Source: a virus
Virus record (IMG/VR): IMGVR_UViG_3300030109_000565
Location: 1 to 33,103 of that record
DNA length: 33,103 bases
Strand: one strand, 5' to 3'
Positions 10,485 to 29,407 of this stretch are shown here, piece after piece. The notes beneath the pieces are model-generated. The model was not told the origin of the DNA. It did not search any database and saw only the letters and a program-made list of their open reading frames with translations. The first letter of the stretch is position 1; the number at the start of each line of letters is the position of its first letter. Made by a program: the position numbers and the translations under genes.

Positions 10485-13400
10485 ATGGCAACAAGTTTAT
10501 ACTCACCTCAAAGTCCATTAACATTACCAAGTGATTCATTTCCAGCTAGCCCTTCTTTGCTTAATACTTGGAAAGCTCAGATGACTTACTCATATCTGCC
10601 AATTATAAATCATTTAAAAAATAATCATAAGGCTAGTTTTCAATTTAGAGATCCAGAGTTTAATCCTTTTGAAGAAGACTTTACTGGTTATGAAGAACAT
10701 AAAAAATTCTTAATTGAAAACTCTGCAAATCCTAGTCATATGTTTATACTTAAAGATCAGATAGATCGTTCTAATAAAGCAAGAGAAGTATTACATAGAT
10801 CTTCTATAACAAAACAACTTATTACTGGTATATTTGATCCTGTTAATTTAATTCCTATTCCTTTAGGTGGCCCATCTATTGGTTTTTTTAGATCAGCTTT
10901 AAGAGTTTCAGCAGGTGTTGGTGCTTTGTCTGCCGCTTCTGAAGCTATAAGGGCACCTCTTGATCCTACATATCAAGAAGGTGAAGCTTCATTTAATATT
11001 GGTATGGGCCTTGCTTCTGGTTTTGTTTTAGGTGGAGCATTGTCTTTTGTTAAGTACACACCTAAAGAAAGAAAGGCTATAGAAGATTTAAAGCGTGATG
11101 CTGAAACACAGATGGCTGATAAAGGTATTTTAAGTAAACCAGAATATGATAGTAGACTTCCAAGAGAAGAAAGAATGTTTGCTGATATGAAAGATGAAAC
11201 TGTTTTTGATACACTTAAAAAAGAACAGGCACAATTAAAAAAACAAATTGGTTATTTAGATAATGCAAAAGCAAAATTAGAAAACGAAAGATCTATCTTT
11301 AATAATATACCAGAATTAAAACCATTAGAACAAGAAATAAATTTAAAAGCACAAAAGATTCAACAAATTGAAGATATAATTAATGATCTTCTACCACCTA
11401 AACGTGTGGTAAAAGCAGATTTAGAAAATAATATTAACTTAATATTATCTACTACAAAAATTTCTAAATTAAAAAATGAAATAAATCCTGAGCTTTATAA
11501 TGCTTTGATAAAACTTCAAAGAGAAGGTATGGCAGATGGTAAGTTATCAAGAGGTATGACAAGTAGTGGTTTAGCTAAGTCTAAAATAAGAAACTTTAAT
11601 AAACAAATTTCAGCATTAAAAAACATAAAAATAAAAACAGTACAAAATTTTAAAGATTTAGAAATGTTACAAATTTCAAAAGATGTTTACAGCAATGCTG
11701 TTAAAGCTCAAAAGAAAGTAAAGATTGCTGATACTGAATTAAAAAATTTAAGTAAGGAAGTTGATGTAGATGAGTTAAAAAATAGAGTTGGTGTATTTAA
11801 AAGAAAGTCAGCAGGAGGTATGAGTAAAGAAGATTTTGAAGATTTAAATAATTTATTTAGACTTATTGAAGTTGAGAAATTTAAATTAAAACAATTAAGA
11901 AGAAATGTAAGTAAAAGACATGGATCAAATATATCAAGGCTTGAAGAAGAAGTAAGAAAATTTGAAAGACAACTTGATAACAAACAAGACATTGTTAATA
12001 CTGTTAAGCATGAAAAAGATCTAAGGCTAATGGAAGCTTCAGAGTTTGGTATTCAAATCAAACAAGATGAAAACTGGTGGAATGATTCTGCATTTAATAG
12101 GGCTGTTTCAACTCCGTTAAAAAGAATTGTAAATAGTAAACTGCCTAATATTTTTAAAGTAAATGTTATGAATCTTGCGGCAGATGGTGGCATGATTCTT
12201 AATACTCATAAGCTTGGATTTAGTATGGGTCAGTCTGTTCATATGTCTTTACCTGTTTACAAAGGAGAAGTTCATAAAGCTATAAAAGGATTAAGAGAAC
12301 TATGGGCTGAAGAAGGAAAGAAAAGTGCGACTACTTTATTACAGTATGATTTTTCTAATGCTGTAGCTAAGAATAATAATAGATTAGCTTATCTACCTAA
12401 TAAATTTTTAGGTACAAAGTTTAAAAAAGATATAACTTTTGAAGAATTTACAACACGCATAAATGAATATCGTATTAAAAATATAAAACCTGAAACAGAT
12501 GTTGAAGCAAGGGCTGTAAAAATTATAGATGAGTTCTATGACAAATGGGAAGTTAGATTAAAAGAAACTGGTATGATTGGAAGCCAAAAATACTTTGAAG
12601 GTTTACAAGTTGTAAGAGCAAATCAACTTAAAGAGTTTCAAGAAAAACTTTCTAAGCTAAGAGAAACACAAAATAAACAACTAAAAAGAAGAGAAGATAT
12701 AGAAAGAACTTTAAGGAATAAACAAAAAGAATTTGATAGATTACAAAATCAATACAAAGGTTCTGGTAGATTTGCAGGTCTTAATCAAAGAGAAATGGAA
12801 AAGTTTATAGAAGTTAAATCTAAAATTAAAAAAATTAAAGAAGATTTGCAAGACAGAAATAAAATGTTACCTTTCTTTGATCTTACATCAGCAGACTATA
12901 AGTATTTAAGATTATTGACAGAAGATATTATTCCTAAGATACAAAAAGAATTTAGATTTATTGAAAAACAATTAAAAAGTTTTGAGTCTACAAAAATTCT
13001 ACCAACGAATGAAGCTAAGATGCATCCTCGTTATTGGAATAAAACTGCTATTAAAAAGAATATGCCTAAGTTTAAAAATATATTAAAAGAATATTATAGT
13101 AAGCCAAACAATAGACTTGTTGTGGATAGAAAATTAGATGGTTCTTACACAGAAAAAACATTATCTCCAAATGAAATTGATAAATGGGTAGATGATTTAG
13201 TAGATGATCTAATGACTCAAGAAGATATTCTTGATCCATCAAATGCTTATTATGGTATGGGCCGTTCTAAGCATCTTCAGCATAGAAGAATAGATATACC
13301 AAATGAATTGGTTTATGATTTTATTCAACAGAATCCAATACAAGTAATGGCGGCTTACATTGCAAGAACAGCACCAGCTTATGAGTTTAATATTAAGTTT

Positions 13401-14903: not shown

Positions 14904-16262
14904 ATGACAATAAGCACATCAGATAATACACCAAGAGTTTCATATTCTGTTTCAGAAGGTGCAACTCAAACATCATTTACAGTTTCATTTCAATTTTTTT
15001 CTGAGTCAGATTTAAATGTATATGTAGACGGTACGAAGAAGACAATCACCACTCATTACACCGTGTCAGGTGGATCTGGTTCTACAGGTACAGTTTCAAT
15101 ATCAGTTACTGGTGCAAGTGGTGGATCAACTGTTCTTATTACTAGAGAGATAGCATTAGATAGAACTACAGATTTTCCAACATCAGGTGCATTTACAGTA
15201 TCAACTCTAAATACTGAGCTTGATAGATTTGTAGCTATACAAGCAGATCTTGATGACAATGTAACACGATCAATTCATTTAGCAGACGCTGATACTGCTG
15301 TTAGTATGGAGTTGCCATTAAAAGCAAGTAGACTTGGAACAGTATTAGGTTTTAATGCCAGCACTGGTGCAGTGGAAGCAGGCCCAACTATTGCAAATGT
15401 TAATTCCCTCTCAGCCATCACAGCAAATATTAATACAGTTGCAGGAATATCTGGTAATGTTACTACAGTTGCTGGTATGTCTTCAAATTTGTCTACTGTA
15501 GCAGGGATATCTTCAAATGTAAGTAGTGTAGCTGGAGTAGCAAGTTTAATTACGAGTGATTTTGTTAGTGATTTAAACACATTAGCAACTTCTGCCATTG
15601 TAGAAGACTTAAATATCTTAGCAACGAGCGACATTGTGAGTGATTTAAATACGCTTGCTACATCTGATATAGTCTCTGACATAAATGTTTTAGCAACGAG
15701 TGATATAGTTTCTGATATAAATACTTTAGCTACGAGCGATATCGTAAGCGACTTAAATACGTTAGCTACTAGCGATATTGTAAGTGACTTAAATACATTA
15801 GCTACATCTGCAATCGTTGAAGATTTAAATTTACTTGCTACTTCTTCTGTTATTGCTGATATGGCTTCATTAGCAGGGTCAGGTGGAAGTCCAAATATAA
15901 CTTCAGTAACAACAAGTGGTGACATAGTAATTGGTGGTTTGTTAAAAATGCCAGATGTTACCAGTGGCAAAATACTTGTAGGTGATGGAACAAGTTATCA
16001 AGAAGTAGCTGTTAGTGGTGATGTAACAATAGCAAGTAGTGGTGCTGTTACTATAGGCAGTGATGCTGTTGAAAGTGGTATGTTAAATGACAACGTAATT
16101 AGTGGACAAACAGAATTAGCAAGTGGGATTGCTGATACAGATGAAATATTAATTAGTGACGAAGGTACAATTAAACGAACCGATATGTCTGTTGTTAAAA
16201 CTTATGTAGGTGGTTCATCAGCAAGCAAAGGTTTCGCAGTAGCAATGGCAATAGCACTTTAG
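14904..16262 (+). CDS. Tail fibre with T7-fibre-like N-terminal anchor and 12-residue repeats
   Basis: A 452-residue protein. The first ~140 residues (PRVSYSVSEGATQTSFTV, LNVYVDGTKK, VLITREIALDRTTDF, LNTELDRFVAIQADL) match the N-terminal domain of T7 gp17-type fibres that docks on the tail. Then come TVAGIS-type heptad-like repeats (about 170-215), eight 12-residue repeats centred on LATSDIVSD (about 224-319), and a beta-rich Gly/Ser section. The end (KGFAVAMAIAL) is short, with no obvious receptor-binding head, so the following proteins may supply the tip. Trimeric rod formation is inferred from the repeat pattern. Confidence 0.87.
   Translation: MTISTSDNTPRVSYSVSEGATQTSFTVSFQFFSESDLNVYVDGTKKTITTHYTVSGGSGSTGTVSISVTGASGGSTVLITREIALDRTTDFPTSGAFTVSTLNTELDRFVAIQADLDDNVTRSIHLADADTAVSMELPLKASRLGTVLGFNASTGAVEAGPTIANVNSLSAITANINTVAGISGNVTTVAGMSSNLSTVAGISSNVSSVAGVASLITSDFVSDLNTLATSAIVEDLNILATSDIVSDLNTLATSDIVSDINVLATSDIVSDINTLATSDIVSDLNTLATSDIVSDLNTLATSAIVEDLNLLATSSVIADMASLAGSGGSPNITSVTTSGDIVIGGLLKMPDVTSGKILVGDGTSYQEVAVSGDVTIASSGAVTIGSDAVESGMLNDNVISGQTELASGIADTDEILISDEGTIKRTDMSVVKTYVGGSSASKGFAVAMAIAL
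15573..15860 (+). repeat. Eight tandem 36-bp units in the tail-fibre gene
   Basis: Eight in-frame units of 36 bases encode LNTLATSDIVSD-like 12-mers. The protein units are nearly identical while the codons differ widely, including Ser written as AGY in some units and TCT in others. The repeats probably build a regular shaft. A partial unit (ITSDFVSD) precedes them. Confidence 0.9.
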
Positions 16263-20165: not shown

Positions 20166-20605
20166 ATGTAGATAAACTTAGAAAACAATTAGAAATTGAT
20201 GAAGGTGTTAAGTATGAAGTGTACCTAGATCACCTTGGTAAAAAAACTTTTGGAATTGGGCATCTTACAATTGCAGGTGATCCTGAAAATGATATGGAAG
20301 TTGGTACACCTGTATCTGAGAAAAGAGTGCAGGAAGTTTTTGATAAAGATGTTCAGTCTGTAATTGATGACTGTAAAAGATTGCATAATGATTTTAATTC
20401 TTTACCTGAAGAGTGTAAACAAATCATAGGGAACATGATGTTTAATATGGGCTTGCCAAAAATGAAAGCTTTTAAAAAAATGAATAAAGCTATTGAAGAA
20501 AGAAATTGGGAAGAAGCATCAAGACAAATGATTGACAGCAAATGGTATAAGACTGTAACTAATAGAGCAGATCGTCTTGTTCAAAGAATGAAGATGGTAA
20601 GCTAG
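20162..20605 (+). CDS. Endolysin, phage lysozyme GH24
   Basis: A 147-residue T4-type lysozyme with GTG start at 20162, overlapping the previous stop as GTGA, behind GGGAG. The catalytic triad spacing is conserved: Glu14 (in DEG), Asp23 (in LDHLGKK) and Thr29, followed by FGIGH. It cleaves the N-acetylmuramic acid to N-acetylglucosamine bond of peptidoglycan. No signal peptide is present, so it depends on the holins. It is the last gene of the late module, followed by a strong terminator. Confidence 0.92.
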   Translation: MNVDKLRKQLEIDEGVKYEVYLDHLGKKTFGIGHLTIAGDPENDMEVGTPVSEKRVQEVFDKDVQSVIDDCKRLHNDFNSLPEECKQIIGNMMFNMGLPKMKAFKKMNKAIEERNWEEASRQMIDSKWYKTVTNRADRLVQRMKMVS

Positions 20606-20631
20606 AGATATCCTCCCTATCTCTACTAACT

Positions 20632-20678
20632 GCCTCCGACTTGAGCTTTTTGGGTAGCTCCGTCGGAGGCTTTTTTTT
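20632..20678 (+). terminator. Intrinsic terminator of the late module
   Basis: GCCTCCGAC (20632-20640) pairs with GTCGGAGGC (20662-20670), and an inner GAGCT/AGCTC stem extends the hairpin. Eight T residues follow (20671-20678). This is a textbook Rho-independent terminator for plus-strand transcripts. Confidence 0.92.
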
Positions 20679-20680
20679 AT

Positions 20681-20717
20681 AAAAAAGAGCAAGAGTTGGC
20701 TAGTACAACTCTTGCTC
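20681..20717 (-). terminator. Intrinsic terminator of the early module
   Basis: A perfect 12-bp stem, GAGCAAGAGTTG (20687-20698) with CAACTCTTGCTC (20706-20717), and a 7-base loop. Read on the minus strand, the stem is followed by six U residues. It lies just behind the last early gene and back to back with the late terminator. Confidence 0.88.
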
Positions 20718-20760
20718 AGTGAGGCAGATTGAGATTAGTTTTGGAGAACACTCTCAGCCT

Positions 20761-21171
20761 CTAAAACGGAATATCATCCCCATCCCCCAAGGGGTCTGAT
20801 TTATTATTAGACTGTAATGGATCAGAATTATTTTGTCCAGATTCTAATTTTTCTGAGAGAGAAATATTTAAATAATTATTACCAGTATTTTCTTGAACAC
20901 GTTTCCAAGCGGCAACTTTCATTTCTTCTCCTAAATGATCTTGCAATGTACCTGTATAGTTTGGTGCTTTTTCATTGTCACTTTGATTGTCAAACATAAC
21001 ACCAATCTCTTGATATATTTTAATAATTTTTTTATTATTTTTTGTTTGGCCTGCAATATAAACACATCTTTTTTCTATACCTTGTACATCTAGGTTTCCT
21101 GATAAAATAAATTTTTGATCTGAGAAGGGTGCGAAAGCCGCACCCTTGTTTTTATTGTCGTAATCACTCAT
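20761..21171 (-). CDS. Putative single-stranded DNA-binding protein with DDIPF tail
   Basis: A 136-residue protein starting in a TAATG overlap behind AAGGAG. The last ~30 residues are disordered and acidic and end in GDGDDIPF, the protein-interaction tip typical of bacterial SSB proteins. The core (FILSGNLDVQGIEKRCVYIA, then MKVAAWKRVQENTGNNYLNI) does not look like a classical SSB OB fold to me; it faintly recalls DUF736 proteins. Position at the end of an exonuclease-annealase operon supports ssDNA binding. It may act in recombination-dependent replication and contact host repair proteins by its tail. Confidence 0.72.
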   Translation of the reverse strand: MSDYDNKNKGAAFAPFSDQKFILSGNLDVQGIEKRCVYIAGQTKNNKKIIKIYQEIGVMFDNQSDNEKAPNYTGTLQDHLGEEMKVAAWKRVQENTGNNYLNISLSEKLESGQNNSDPLQSNNKSDPLGDGDDIPF

Positions 21172-27546: not shown

Positions 27547-28326
27547 TTAGGATGCTGTACTGCATGCCTGTGTGAATCTGTTGTTGATTCCTTTTGCTAT
27601 GATGGCATCCATTTCTTCTTTTGTTTTGTTAGCATATTTGTCAGCTTCTGTTTTCCCTTGATAATTTTTTATACGCTGTTCTTCTAGTGTAACTAAAGGA
27701 TGTACATATTCTGTTGGTAGTATATTGTGTTTGTTTTCCTCATTATATGCTACAGAGTTTACTGTATATAATGCCATTAGTGTGTTCATTATTGTGAAGT
27801 TATTCTTTAGTGAGTAGTCGGCATCATTATATGCTTGTGATCTTTTCATGTACTTAGTTTGAGCAATTACTAGGTCACCTAGTTTTGGATGCTGTTGGTC
27901 TGTTACAAGTATTGGTTTGCCAAAGTCATCCACATCTTCTCTTGTTTCTGTTCTATCCTCATCTACTTCTGCTTGTAGTTCCATGTAAGGCCCTTCGGCA
28001 TTTTCGTATGAACGTTTCATTTCGGCATGATATTGTACGTTACCTTTGTATTTCTTGTTGTAGAATATCATTGATGGGTCGTTATCTTGAGAGTAGAAGT
28101 TCTTTACAAGATTGAATAGCATATCTGAACACATCTTTCTTCTATCATAAGGTGTTAGTTGTGTATTTATTAGCTGTGTTACAGTGTTTTGAGTTTTACC
28201 AAGTACACTTGCTTTGAAGTCTTTTAATGCTTCAAATGATTTCCAGATTTTATCTTGGTCTTTGTATGTGATTGGCGTTGCAAAGTTTTCTATATTATTT
28301 TTTGGTAATGTAGTTTTCTTAGTCAT
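27547..28326 (-). CDS. First early gene, unknown function, 259 residues
   Basis: Starts with ATG 28326 (MTKKTTLPKNNIENFATPIT) behind GGAGAACACA; the four codons upstream include the ribosome site. The protein is polar and helical, with an acidic middle (MELQAEVDEDRTETREDVDD) and a segment of short helices (MKRSQAYNDADYSLKNNFTI). No domain is recognised. As first gene of the early operon, next to the promoter region, it is a candidate for host takeover or gene regulation. It ends 10 bases before the hairpin at 27515-27536. Confidence 0.7.
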   Translation of the reverse strand: MTKKTTLPKNNIENFATPITYKDQDKIWKSFEALKDFKASVLGKTQNTVTQLINTQLTPYDRRKMCSDMLFNLVKNFYSQDNDPSMIFYNKKYKGNVQYHAEMKRSYENAEGPYMELQAEVDEDRTETREDVDDFGKPILVTDQQHPKLGDLVIAQTKYMKRSQAYNDADYSLKNNFTIMNTLMALYTVNSVAYNEENKHNILPTEYVHPLVTLEEQRIKNYQGKTEADKYANKTKEEMDAIIAKGINNRFTQACSTAS

Positions 28327-28350
28327 TGTGTTCTCCATATTAATTGTTTT

Positions 28351-28374
28351 ATTATAATGTAATCTTCTTTGACT
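28351..28374. promoter_or_regulatory. Possible divergent promoter elements
   Basis: ATTATAAT (28351-28358) reads TATAAT on both strands. On the minus strand it is 25 bases before the early start codon and could be its -10 box, although no good -35 is seen. On the plus strand TTGACT (28369-28374) could be a -35 with CATAAC (28390-28395) as a weak -10 at 15-base spacing, giving a start near the beginning of the structured RNA. Confidence 0.35.
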
Positions 28375-28395
28375 ACCCTTTCAGAAGAGCATAAC

Positions 28396-28976
28396 TGGTC
28401 TTGAAATGAAAGAAGAAGCTATCATAAAGTTCTTTGTCGCAGAGGCTTTATATATCGTAGCTCGCACTCTTTGCGAGCTTCTACACACAACCAGCAAGGC
28501 TGGTTGTGAAGCCTCAAGGTACTTTATGATCGGTTGTTCTTTCATAACCACAAAAGAATACGCAGGTGCGTAAGCACCTGCAAACATAAGTGTGGTGGTT
28601 CATAGGCAGGTATGGTCTGGTGTTTAAAGTGACCTGCACCTTCTCTCTCTTCCATTGAATGTTTACGCACACGCAATCATGCGTGTCGCATTTAGTAAAC
28701 TATTGATGTAATTGAACGCAAGTCAATTACAGCAACGAGAGAGAAGGTGTGGGGCAGGGGGGATAATTAATAACGCTCAACGTCATCCCTGCGAACTCCT
28801 TTTAGCTTGTCCTGTGAGCGTTCTAAGTATGGTCGCTCTTGCGAATAGGTCATTGACCTATAATACTTGGGCTTGTGTCTACAAGCTTATAATGTAGACT
28901 TGTACCAATCTCGCAGAGATTGTAGATAATGTACAAGTCTACTGGTGCAATTCTGTAACTACTGTGATGAAGTTAC
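28396..28976 (+). ncRNA. Large structured non-coding RNA candidate
   Basis: The region has no credible gene and folds nearly throughout. Domain A (28396-28550): 28406-28414/28537-28545, 28421-28430/28521-28530 and 28442-28448/28509-28515, leading to a three-way junction with hairpins 28460-28478 and 28486-28508. A hairpin at 28562-28581 has 8 bp and a GTAA (GNRA) loop. Domain B (28637-28749): a 13-bp closing stem with inner hairpins 28661-28700 and 28707-28731. Pseudoknot candidate: 28754-28759/28787-28792 with 28772-28779/28815-28822. Domain C: 28825-28830/28863-28868 around two hairpins. Domain D: a 12+7-bp stem at 28894-28942. A last hairpin lies at 28955-28976. The GNRA loop and G-U extensions of domains A and C favour the plus strand. 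Confidence 0.7.
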
Positions 28977-29035
28977 GTCTTGACATGGGTTTTGAGGAGT
29001 TGCTAAAAGGGGGGAACACAAGGGGGGTTTCATAT

Positions 29036-29407
29036 ATGAATAAGATAGCTGTTCTAACTGAAAAGCAAAGAAGGTTGGTTGATACACTTGTAGCAACAGG
29101 ATGTTCTATAACTGAAGCGTCACAAGTAGCAGGATATGCAAGAGGTGATGCAGGTAGAGTGACTGCCAGTAAGGCTTTGAAGGTGCCTCATGTGCAAGAG
29201 TATATGATGCAGGCAGTGGCTAATAGTATTGGTGTTAATGCTACGTTAGCTTCCAGTAAGTTACTCAAACTAGCTAAAGGTGCTAAGAGTGAGTATGTAC
29301 AGTTAGAAGCAAGTAAGGACATACTTGATCGTGCAGGATTTAAGGCACCAGATAAGCATCTACATTTACACAAGGGTGATATCAAGGTTTCTATAGATCT
29401 AGGTTGA
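29036..29407 (+). CDS. terS: Terminase small subunit
   Basis: A 123-residue protein from ATG 29036 behind AAGGGGGG; the frame is open to 28964 but those codons lie in a structured region. The N-terminal helix-turn-helix, AVLTEKQRRLVDTLVATGCS then ITEASQVAGYARGD and ASKALKVPHVQEYM, is typical of Terminase_2-type small subunits, which recognise viral DNA and feed it to the large subunit. A second helical part (LLKLAKGAKSEYVQLEASKD) would form the oligomerisation domain, and the end is His-rich (HLHLHKGDIKVS). The large terminase is 1.3 kb downstream. Confidence 0.83.
   Translation: MNKIAVLTEKQRRLVDTLVATGCSITEASQVAGYARGDAGRVTASKALKVPHVQEYMMQAVANSIGVNATLASSKLLKLAKGAKSEYVQLEASKDILDRAGFKAPDKHLHLHKGDIKVSIDLG

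Follow-up and report, generated by a model that had tools for sequence, protein, structure and literature searches.

What is the function of the gap between the divergent early and late genes of a small marine phage, a gap that appears to hold no gene and is filled with inverted repeats? Does it encode an RNA, and if so, from which strand would that RNA be read? We asked this of IMGVR_UViG_3300030109_000565, a 33.1-kb podovirus-like phage with portal (Head-tail_con) and Phage_capsid_2 proteins; its whole record of 33,103 nucleotides is hereafter called the window. The terL of the window has a 64% match to that of Pelagibacter phage Hodr. Its late genes run rightward from terS, and its early genes run leftward from the same junction. 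The early genes that could be recognised encode an SSB-like protein, an Erf-like annealing protein, a RecE-like exonuclease, a RusA-like resolvase, an endolysin and a DUF932 protein; no polymerase, primase or helicase was recognised among them. A search for DnaA-box clusters and iterons as marks of an origin found none, and ARAGORN found no tRNA genes in the window. The first early gene probably starts at CAT 28324-28326, with the complement of a Shine-Dalgarno sequence at about 28333-28336, and terS probably starts at ATG 29036 and not at the in-frame GTG 28964 upstream of it. Two other features of the window lie away from this junction. Tandem repeats with a 36-base unit occupy 15551-15830, inside a late gene encoding a 452-aa tail-related protein. 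A second strong fold is present on both strands at 20601-20800 (z about -5.8), where the late and early operons converge, and is probably a bidirectional terminator.

The initial annotation, made from the letters alone, had described nested inverted repeats without a credible gene at 28396-28976 and had proposed that they form a structured plus-strand RNA. The repeats are real: the plus strand of 28360-29040 folds to -267.5 kcal/mol, compared to -180.9 in shuffled sequences (z -10.1), and when both strands of the whole 33 kb were scanned, the strongest folding in 200-base segments was found within 28401-29000. The predicted fold can be divided into domains I to V and a last hairpin (Table 1), and the part 28767-28866 reaches only z -2.0 when folded alone. 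The small reading frames in the gap have no Pfam match, in keeping with the absence of a credible gene; this includes a 55-aa frame at 28406-28573, which is not preserved in the related loci L002 or L006. Regarding the strand, the G-U pair 28433/28518, which had been offered in favour of the plus strand, is present in the predicted fold. The minus strand of 28360-29040 is equally foldable (z -10.7), and folding alone can therefore neither tell the strand nor prove that an RNA is involved. The GTAA loop, also offered as evidence for the strand, fails in this respect, since GNRA loops make up 2 of 68 four-base loops in the relatives, which is near chance and not an enrichment. Thus the plus-strand conclusion stands on the comparisons described below, and the arguments from the fold and from the GNRA loop do not.

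Table 1. Features of the early/late junction, in positions of the window.
Feature	Position	Strand	Basis or remark
First early gene, ~259 aa, function unknown	27547..28326	-	Divergent from the RNA; ORF list
Non-coding stretch holding the RNA	28327..28976	+	Early-gene start codon to last hairpin; ORFs, sequence
Folded part of the RNA	about 28406-28976 (~570 bases)	+	z -10.1; strongest folding of the window
Domain I: long stem enclosing two inner hairpins	28406..28545	+	z -8.8 alone; covariation
Internal motif, 5' strand AGAAGYU	28414..28420	+	Comparison of window, L002, L006
Internal motif, 3' strand CRGUUGU	28531..28537	+	Comparison of window, L002, L006
Domain II: 8-bp hairpin with GUAA loop, within 6-bp outer stem	28547..28596	+	z -6.7 (28546-28597)
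Linker GUUUAAAGUGRCNUGCA before domain III	28622..28638	+	Common to window and L002/L007
Domain III: three-way junction with long closing stem	28630..28756	+	z -6.1 (28620-28760)
Domain IV: weaker, branched; 8-bp helix around AAGTAT/ATACTT and two hairpins	28823..28870	+	Full-length fold
Domain V: perfect 12-bp stem, inner hairpin	28894..28942	+	z -4.2 (28868-28975)
Last hairpin GTAACT/AGTTAC, just 5' of promoter-like element	28955..28976	+	Sequence
Promoter-like element TTGACA-18-TAAAAG	28980..29009	+	TTGACA 28980-28985; TAAAAG 29004-29009; kept in relatives
Paired G runs GGGGGGAACACAAGGGGGG	29009..29027	+	Runs at 29009-29014, 29022-29027
terS, small terminase subunit	29036..29407	+	phrog_2538, E 6.7e-11

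To place the gap among its relatives, a terS search was used to collect 80 loci from viral contigs, which are metagenomic and of uneven quality. Comparing the 600 bases before terS with shuffles, dense folding was found at the same place in most of the 69 loci tested, and nearly all loci with enough upstream sequence folded better than shuffled, mostly by far. The same was observed in 12 of 12 tested loci found independently via the promoter and G-run element discussed below (z between -5 and -18), and in the gap of the cultured phage Hodr (z -5.0). In length and topology the RNA of the family varies, from a rod of about 180 bases in Hodr to over 800 bases. Judged from these genomes, the predicted feature is common to a clade of marine podoviruses of about 33 kb, Hodr included. 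Not every divergent layout has it: Cronobacter phage Ss1, a terL relative with the same layout, has a 540-base gap that is unstructured (z +0.63). The Hodr record OQ414635 (L082, EXVC031P), in which the gap spans about 12037-12373 and the terS direction is the minus strand, bears locus tags that name a different phage, EXVC032PBaldr, and lists both terS and terL as hypothetical proteins.

At the level of letters, the gaps have diverged widely. BLASTN of the window gap against phages and the 80 relatives gave nothing significant at normal stringency, and at low stringency it matched only L007, L002 and L006, with 55% identity over 376 bases to L007/L002 (E 0.002). Searches for closer relatives via a 263-aa early protein, an exact 21-base seed and a 96-aa late protein gave none with an alignable gap. 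Some groups of relatives have gaps that are alignable among themselves, and no universal sequence motif was found across the gaps of the family. At the tip of the first domain, the motif CC-CAACNCGG ... GGTGCGGGCAG-GG occurs in L026, L029, L054, L058, L059, L065, L074 and Hodr; common to distant lineages, this tip is possibly a conserved contact for a protein or an RNA. The initial annotation had claimed no homology to a known class, and a check against Rfam, GOLLD and ROOL included, agrees with it: no family matched the window or 18 relatives at gathering score, nor did any match 28300-29100 up to E = 10.

Covariation was one of the points on which the initial annotation had made its proposal depend, and the homologous loci do covary. 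In domain I, 98.5% of the cells of the alignment are paired, and none of 500 shuffles was comparable. Comparing the window with L002/L007 and L006, 17 of 22 pairs in this domain have changed on both sides. Both of its stems have been almost wholly relettered among the window, L002 and L006, and the AGAAGYU/CRGUUGU motif has been kept. The pairing of this motif is A-U, G.G, A-U, A-U, G.G, Y-R (covarying) and U.C, with all positions either invariant or covarying as R/Y in these three loci. Domain III has a layout common to the window and L002/L007, in which the closing stem has been replaced (CCTTCTCTC/GAGAGAAGG vs GGTCAGGGC/GCCCTGACC); in the window and L007 this stem encloses a junction with two hairpins. 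The covariation support for the RNA of the window itself draws on three lineages in domain I and on two in domain III, and no clear homologue of its domains II, IV and V was found among the relatives. Across clusters, pairs in which both partners changed were Watson-Crick in 196 cases, G-U in 15 and unpaired in 40, compared to a chance expectation of about 84, 28 and 140 by our own arithmetic with equal substitution, all counts being made without a phylogenetic null. L020, L022 and L047 alone have 31 pairs with both sides changed. The comparison shows that selection preserves the predicted plus-strand fold while the letters turn over fast.

The mismatches that remain in the stems carry a record of the strand. 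The stem search admitted no pairs but Watson-Crick ones and applied an equal penalty to all mismatches, so G-U pairs could not be favoured by the search itself. Stems with a score of at least 10 occur at 4.1 per kb in 54 non-redundant gaps, as opposed to 0.28 per kb in shuffled gaps and 0.5-1.1 per kb in neighbouring coding DNA. The mismatches left in the stems of the 54 gaps were counted in couples, each couple being one mismatch as read on either strand: GT 59/AC 9, TT 36/AA 13, GG 26/CC 0 and AG 56/CT 28. All four couples lean to the plus strand and to pairs that RNA tolerates. In the controls, GT and AC were even (11/10 and 6/5). The bias of GT over AC has a binomial p of 1e-8 for all 54 loci, and it was also observed in the independent set of loci found by the promoter and G-run element (GT 20/AC 1) and in the loci without an inverted gene copy, the class of the window (GT 15/AC 1). 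Since the leftover mismatches are G·U in 59 cases and A·C in 9, the selected molecule would be a plus-strand RNA, and the bias argues strongly against both a DNA cruciform and a minus-strand RNA as the predicted structure. Together, the mismatch spectrum and the covariation in homologous loci back the claim of a plus-strand structured RNA, and we regard the existence, the strand and the family of this RNA, held jointly, as very probable on comparative grounds. The window shows the marks of the family: dense folding between the divergent early gene and the TTGACA element, covariation in its domain I, and, through its copy-less class of loci, the wobble bias.

If such an RNA exists, to what does it relate? 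In at least 14 relatives including Hodr, the outer arm of the fold is antisense to the leader, the ribosome site and the start of the divergent early gene. The partner of this arm is a sense-like inverted copy of the early-gene start, located 120 to 290 bases further right. The copy-bearing loci are L009, L020, L047, L045, L023, L031, L026, L029, L042, L050, L055, L057, L075, L003, L004 and Hodr. The similarity between gene and copy typically covers 20-75 leader bases and 20-80 coding bases at 68-77% identity. In L020, L047 and L045, the copy spans the whole 137-138-codon early gene (605 bases in L020, E 2e-87); it lies in the gap 179-760 right of the early-gene start, contains insertions, and has kept its complementarity with wobble drift. 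The changes from gene to copy comprise 163 of the types A to G and C to T and 18 of the types G to A and T to C, an excess in the direction that keeps G-U pairing with the gene antisense in a plus-strand RNA, as opposed to a minus-strand one. Within a genome, gene and copy are 77-81% identical, and between L045 and L020/L047 the genes are 56-58% and the copies 46-49% identical. Gene and copy are therefore closer to each other than to their counterparts in other genomes, which means that the two arms change together or are copied anew. Gene conversion may contribute to this concerted change; it leaves the wobble bias unexplained. It is thus the divergent early gene that the RNA physically overlaps in the relatives, and not terS. 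The inverted copy is absent from the window, L002, L034, L051, L067, L069, L061 and L070, and antisense pairing to the early-gene start is therefore not a universal function of the family; the arms of the window have no homology to other genes of its own genome. At the left edge of the gap, the early (minus-strand) leader contains a short GC-rich hairpin (e.g. CCGAGGGCAGTTCCTCGG) in L009, L031, L023, L026, L029, L055 and L075, preceded in several loci by CATAAG or a similar hexamer. This hexamer and hairpin look like the -10 of an early promoter and a leader hairpin; in the copy of L009, the -10-like hexamer has been lost.

The other flank of the RNA is marked by a promoter-like element. TTGAC was found near terS in 77 of 77 relatives, followed in nearly all of them by a spacer of 18 and an A-rich hexamer. 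The version in Hodr, TTGACA-17-TATACT, is a near-perfect sigma-70 match, and from its sequence the element reads as a late promoter. As terS is the first gene after it, the RNA adjoins terS, and as the element lies between the fold and terS, the folded RNA is probably outside the terS message. A sigma-70 promoter for the RNA was not found on its 5' side in most loci, and no terminator was found on its 3' side in the window. Paired G runs, each of 5-8 G and set a short distance apart, were found in 62 of 77 relatives, some of the others being incomplete within the search frame, and nearly always 28-32 bases past TTGACA, against a background of 0.005 per kb. They are missing in Hodr and in the L066/L067/L080 lineage. 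In bacterial genomes, a search for the G-run element gave a single match, in a Nocardia contig. The paired runs, of the type G7-AACACAA-G7, may belong to the late promoter, or serve as a quadruplex or R-loop site or as a terminase site.

The best explanation of the whole, to which we assign a probability of about 0.6, is a plus-strand non-coding junction RNA of some 570 bases that belongs to a family and may exert control in cis; its existence, strand and family carry most of this figure. More specifically, we tentatively propose a cis-acting RNA that may control early expression and the early/late switch, a role that is favoured because the antisense relation to the early-gene start is the most specific relation of the RNA to anything else. 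The RNA would be transcribed from the plus strand, and in copy-bearing relatives its start would lie inside the early gene. In many relatives, its 5' arm would be antisense to the first early gene, from the leader through the ribosome site to the first codons, and would be masked by the imperfect inverted copy of that start which lies downstream in the RNA itself. Between this arm and the genuine early message the pairing is perfect, and such a message could oust the imperfect copy, so that the RNA could bind or sense the early message and help to end early expression. In the window, which has no antisense arm, the RNA would act via its own domains or via overlap with an early leader. Counting against a control role is the fact that the antisense arm already has a pairing partner within the RNA. 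In a more elaborate form of this proposal, which we consider fairly unlikely, the RNA would rebuild its fold by capturing the early gene in reverse, with the antisense of the gene start or of the whole gene as one arm and a wobble-drifted inverted copy as the other. It would then serve as a metastable sensor, open to invasion by the early message, that times the switch from early to late expression or to replication and diversifies so fast that nothing but its structure is conserved.

The main rival to a control RNA, in our estimation fairly unlikely, is a preprimer RNA of a host-dependent origin in the style of ColE1 RNA II or the mitochondrial LSP. Its transcript would enter the G runs, stay hybridised to the DNA and prime replication. 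The recognisable early genes are recombination genes, without a recognised polymerase, primase or helicase, and there is no DnaA-box cluster or iteron; a preprimer would suit a phage lacking replication proteins. Fast letter turnover with a kept fold, which is typical of RNA-controlled replicons, also counts in its favour. The candidate transcript is followed at a fixed distance by paired G runs, comparable to human mitochondrial CSBII, whose G-quadruplex holds the R-loop primer in place (PMC6317783). However, a promoter-like element separates the RNA from the G runs, which may belong to the late promoter, and Hodr and the L066/L067/L080 lineage have no such runs. Moreover, replication genes may be present yet unrecognised.

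A fold kept without a universal sequence motif could also be that of a decoy, a dsRNA-like rod that titrates a host RNA-binding protein such as RNase III, RNA polymerase or a defence sensor, and in which only bulk structure matters. Rods of this kind can arise from reverse copying of an adjacent gene. We consider a decoy improbable: lineage-specific motifs have been kept (the AGAAGYU/CRGUUGU loop and the GUUUAAAGUG linker), and the RNA keeps its place at the early/late junction, a constancy for which a trans-acting decoy has no need. The fold might instead be no separate RNA but part of the late mRNA, as a long structured leader acting in stability, antitermination or as a packaging signal: it has the same direction as terS and lies directly upstream of it, and neither a consistent sigma-70 promoter nor, in the window, a terminator of its own was found for the RNA. 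Nevertheless, transcripts starting at the promoter-like element between the fold and terS would be without the fold, and a late leader is in our view not a likely reading either.

An element acting at the level of DNA without any RNA, whether through cruciforms or as a duplex origin, pac or cos site, would be consistent with the equal foldability of both strands, with a site between divergent operons and beside terS, a usual location of packaging sites and origins, and with the conserved pair of G runs that follows. It predicts symmetric mismatches, and the observed spectrum (GT 59/AC 9, GG 26/CC 0) is that of a plus-strand RNA, which makes a DNA element quite improbable. Finally, the packaging or virion role suggested by the initial annotation, similar to phi29 pRNA, has nothing in its favour beyond adjacency to terS and is highly improbable, given that there is no match to the packaging-RNA model of Rfam in the window or the 18 relatives, that Ss1 combines a related terL and the same layout with an unstructured gap, that length and topology vary as widely as they do, and that the overlap in relatives is with the early gene.

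How does this family compare with known RNAs? Like GOLLD and ROOL, it comprises large, elaborate phage RNAs of similar length and of unknown function. Unlike them, it has no match to their Rfam models in the window or 18 relatives and no fixed conserved core, and it is found at the early/late junction; GOLLD and ROOL are often near tRNA islands, and the window has no tRNA genes. The antisense RNAs of P4, P1/P7 and N15 are short. The control RNAs of these phages (P4 CI, c4 of P1/P7, and that of N15) and the PLE IIR transcript, which is located between inverted repeats, resemble the present RNA in being non-coding and antisense to gene leaders (PMC7567579). In contrast to the P4 CI/c4 kind, the antisense arm of the copy-bearing loci has its partner within the same RNA, namely a degenerate inverted copy of the gene start or, in three loci, of the whole gene. 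Complementarity to a leader and ribosome site, which defines the P4 CI/c4 kind, is found in at least 14 relatives but not in the window, and the window has no match to the Rfam model of that type. The lytic phage ICP1 produces an abundant non-coding transcript of ~800 bases from a gene-free gap beside its lysis cluster (PMC7567579), and, compared by description, the two are alike as long phage non-coding RNAs in gene-free gaps.

Large structured phage RNAs are thus already known (GOLLD, ROOL and the ICP1 transcript), and the part of the open literature that was covered contains no description of such an RNA in these phages. What is new is a family that keeps its fold without keeping its sequence, and that builds arms from an inverted copy of a neighbouring gene. 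Marine podoviruses, including a phage of SAR11, which is one of the most abundant bacterial groups, would possess a family of large structured RNAs. Sequence turnover with kept structure means that ordinary homology searches and covariance libraries miss the family. The cultured relative Hodr, which grows on Pelagibacter HTCC1062, makes its expression and function directly testable. Finally, the inverted gene copies illustrate a way in which a coding gene can give rise to a large structured RNA and co-evolve with it.
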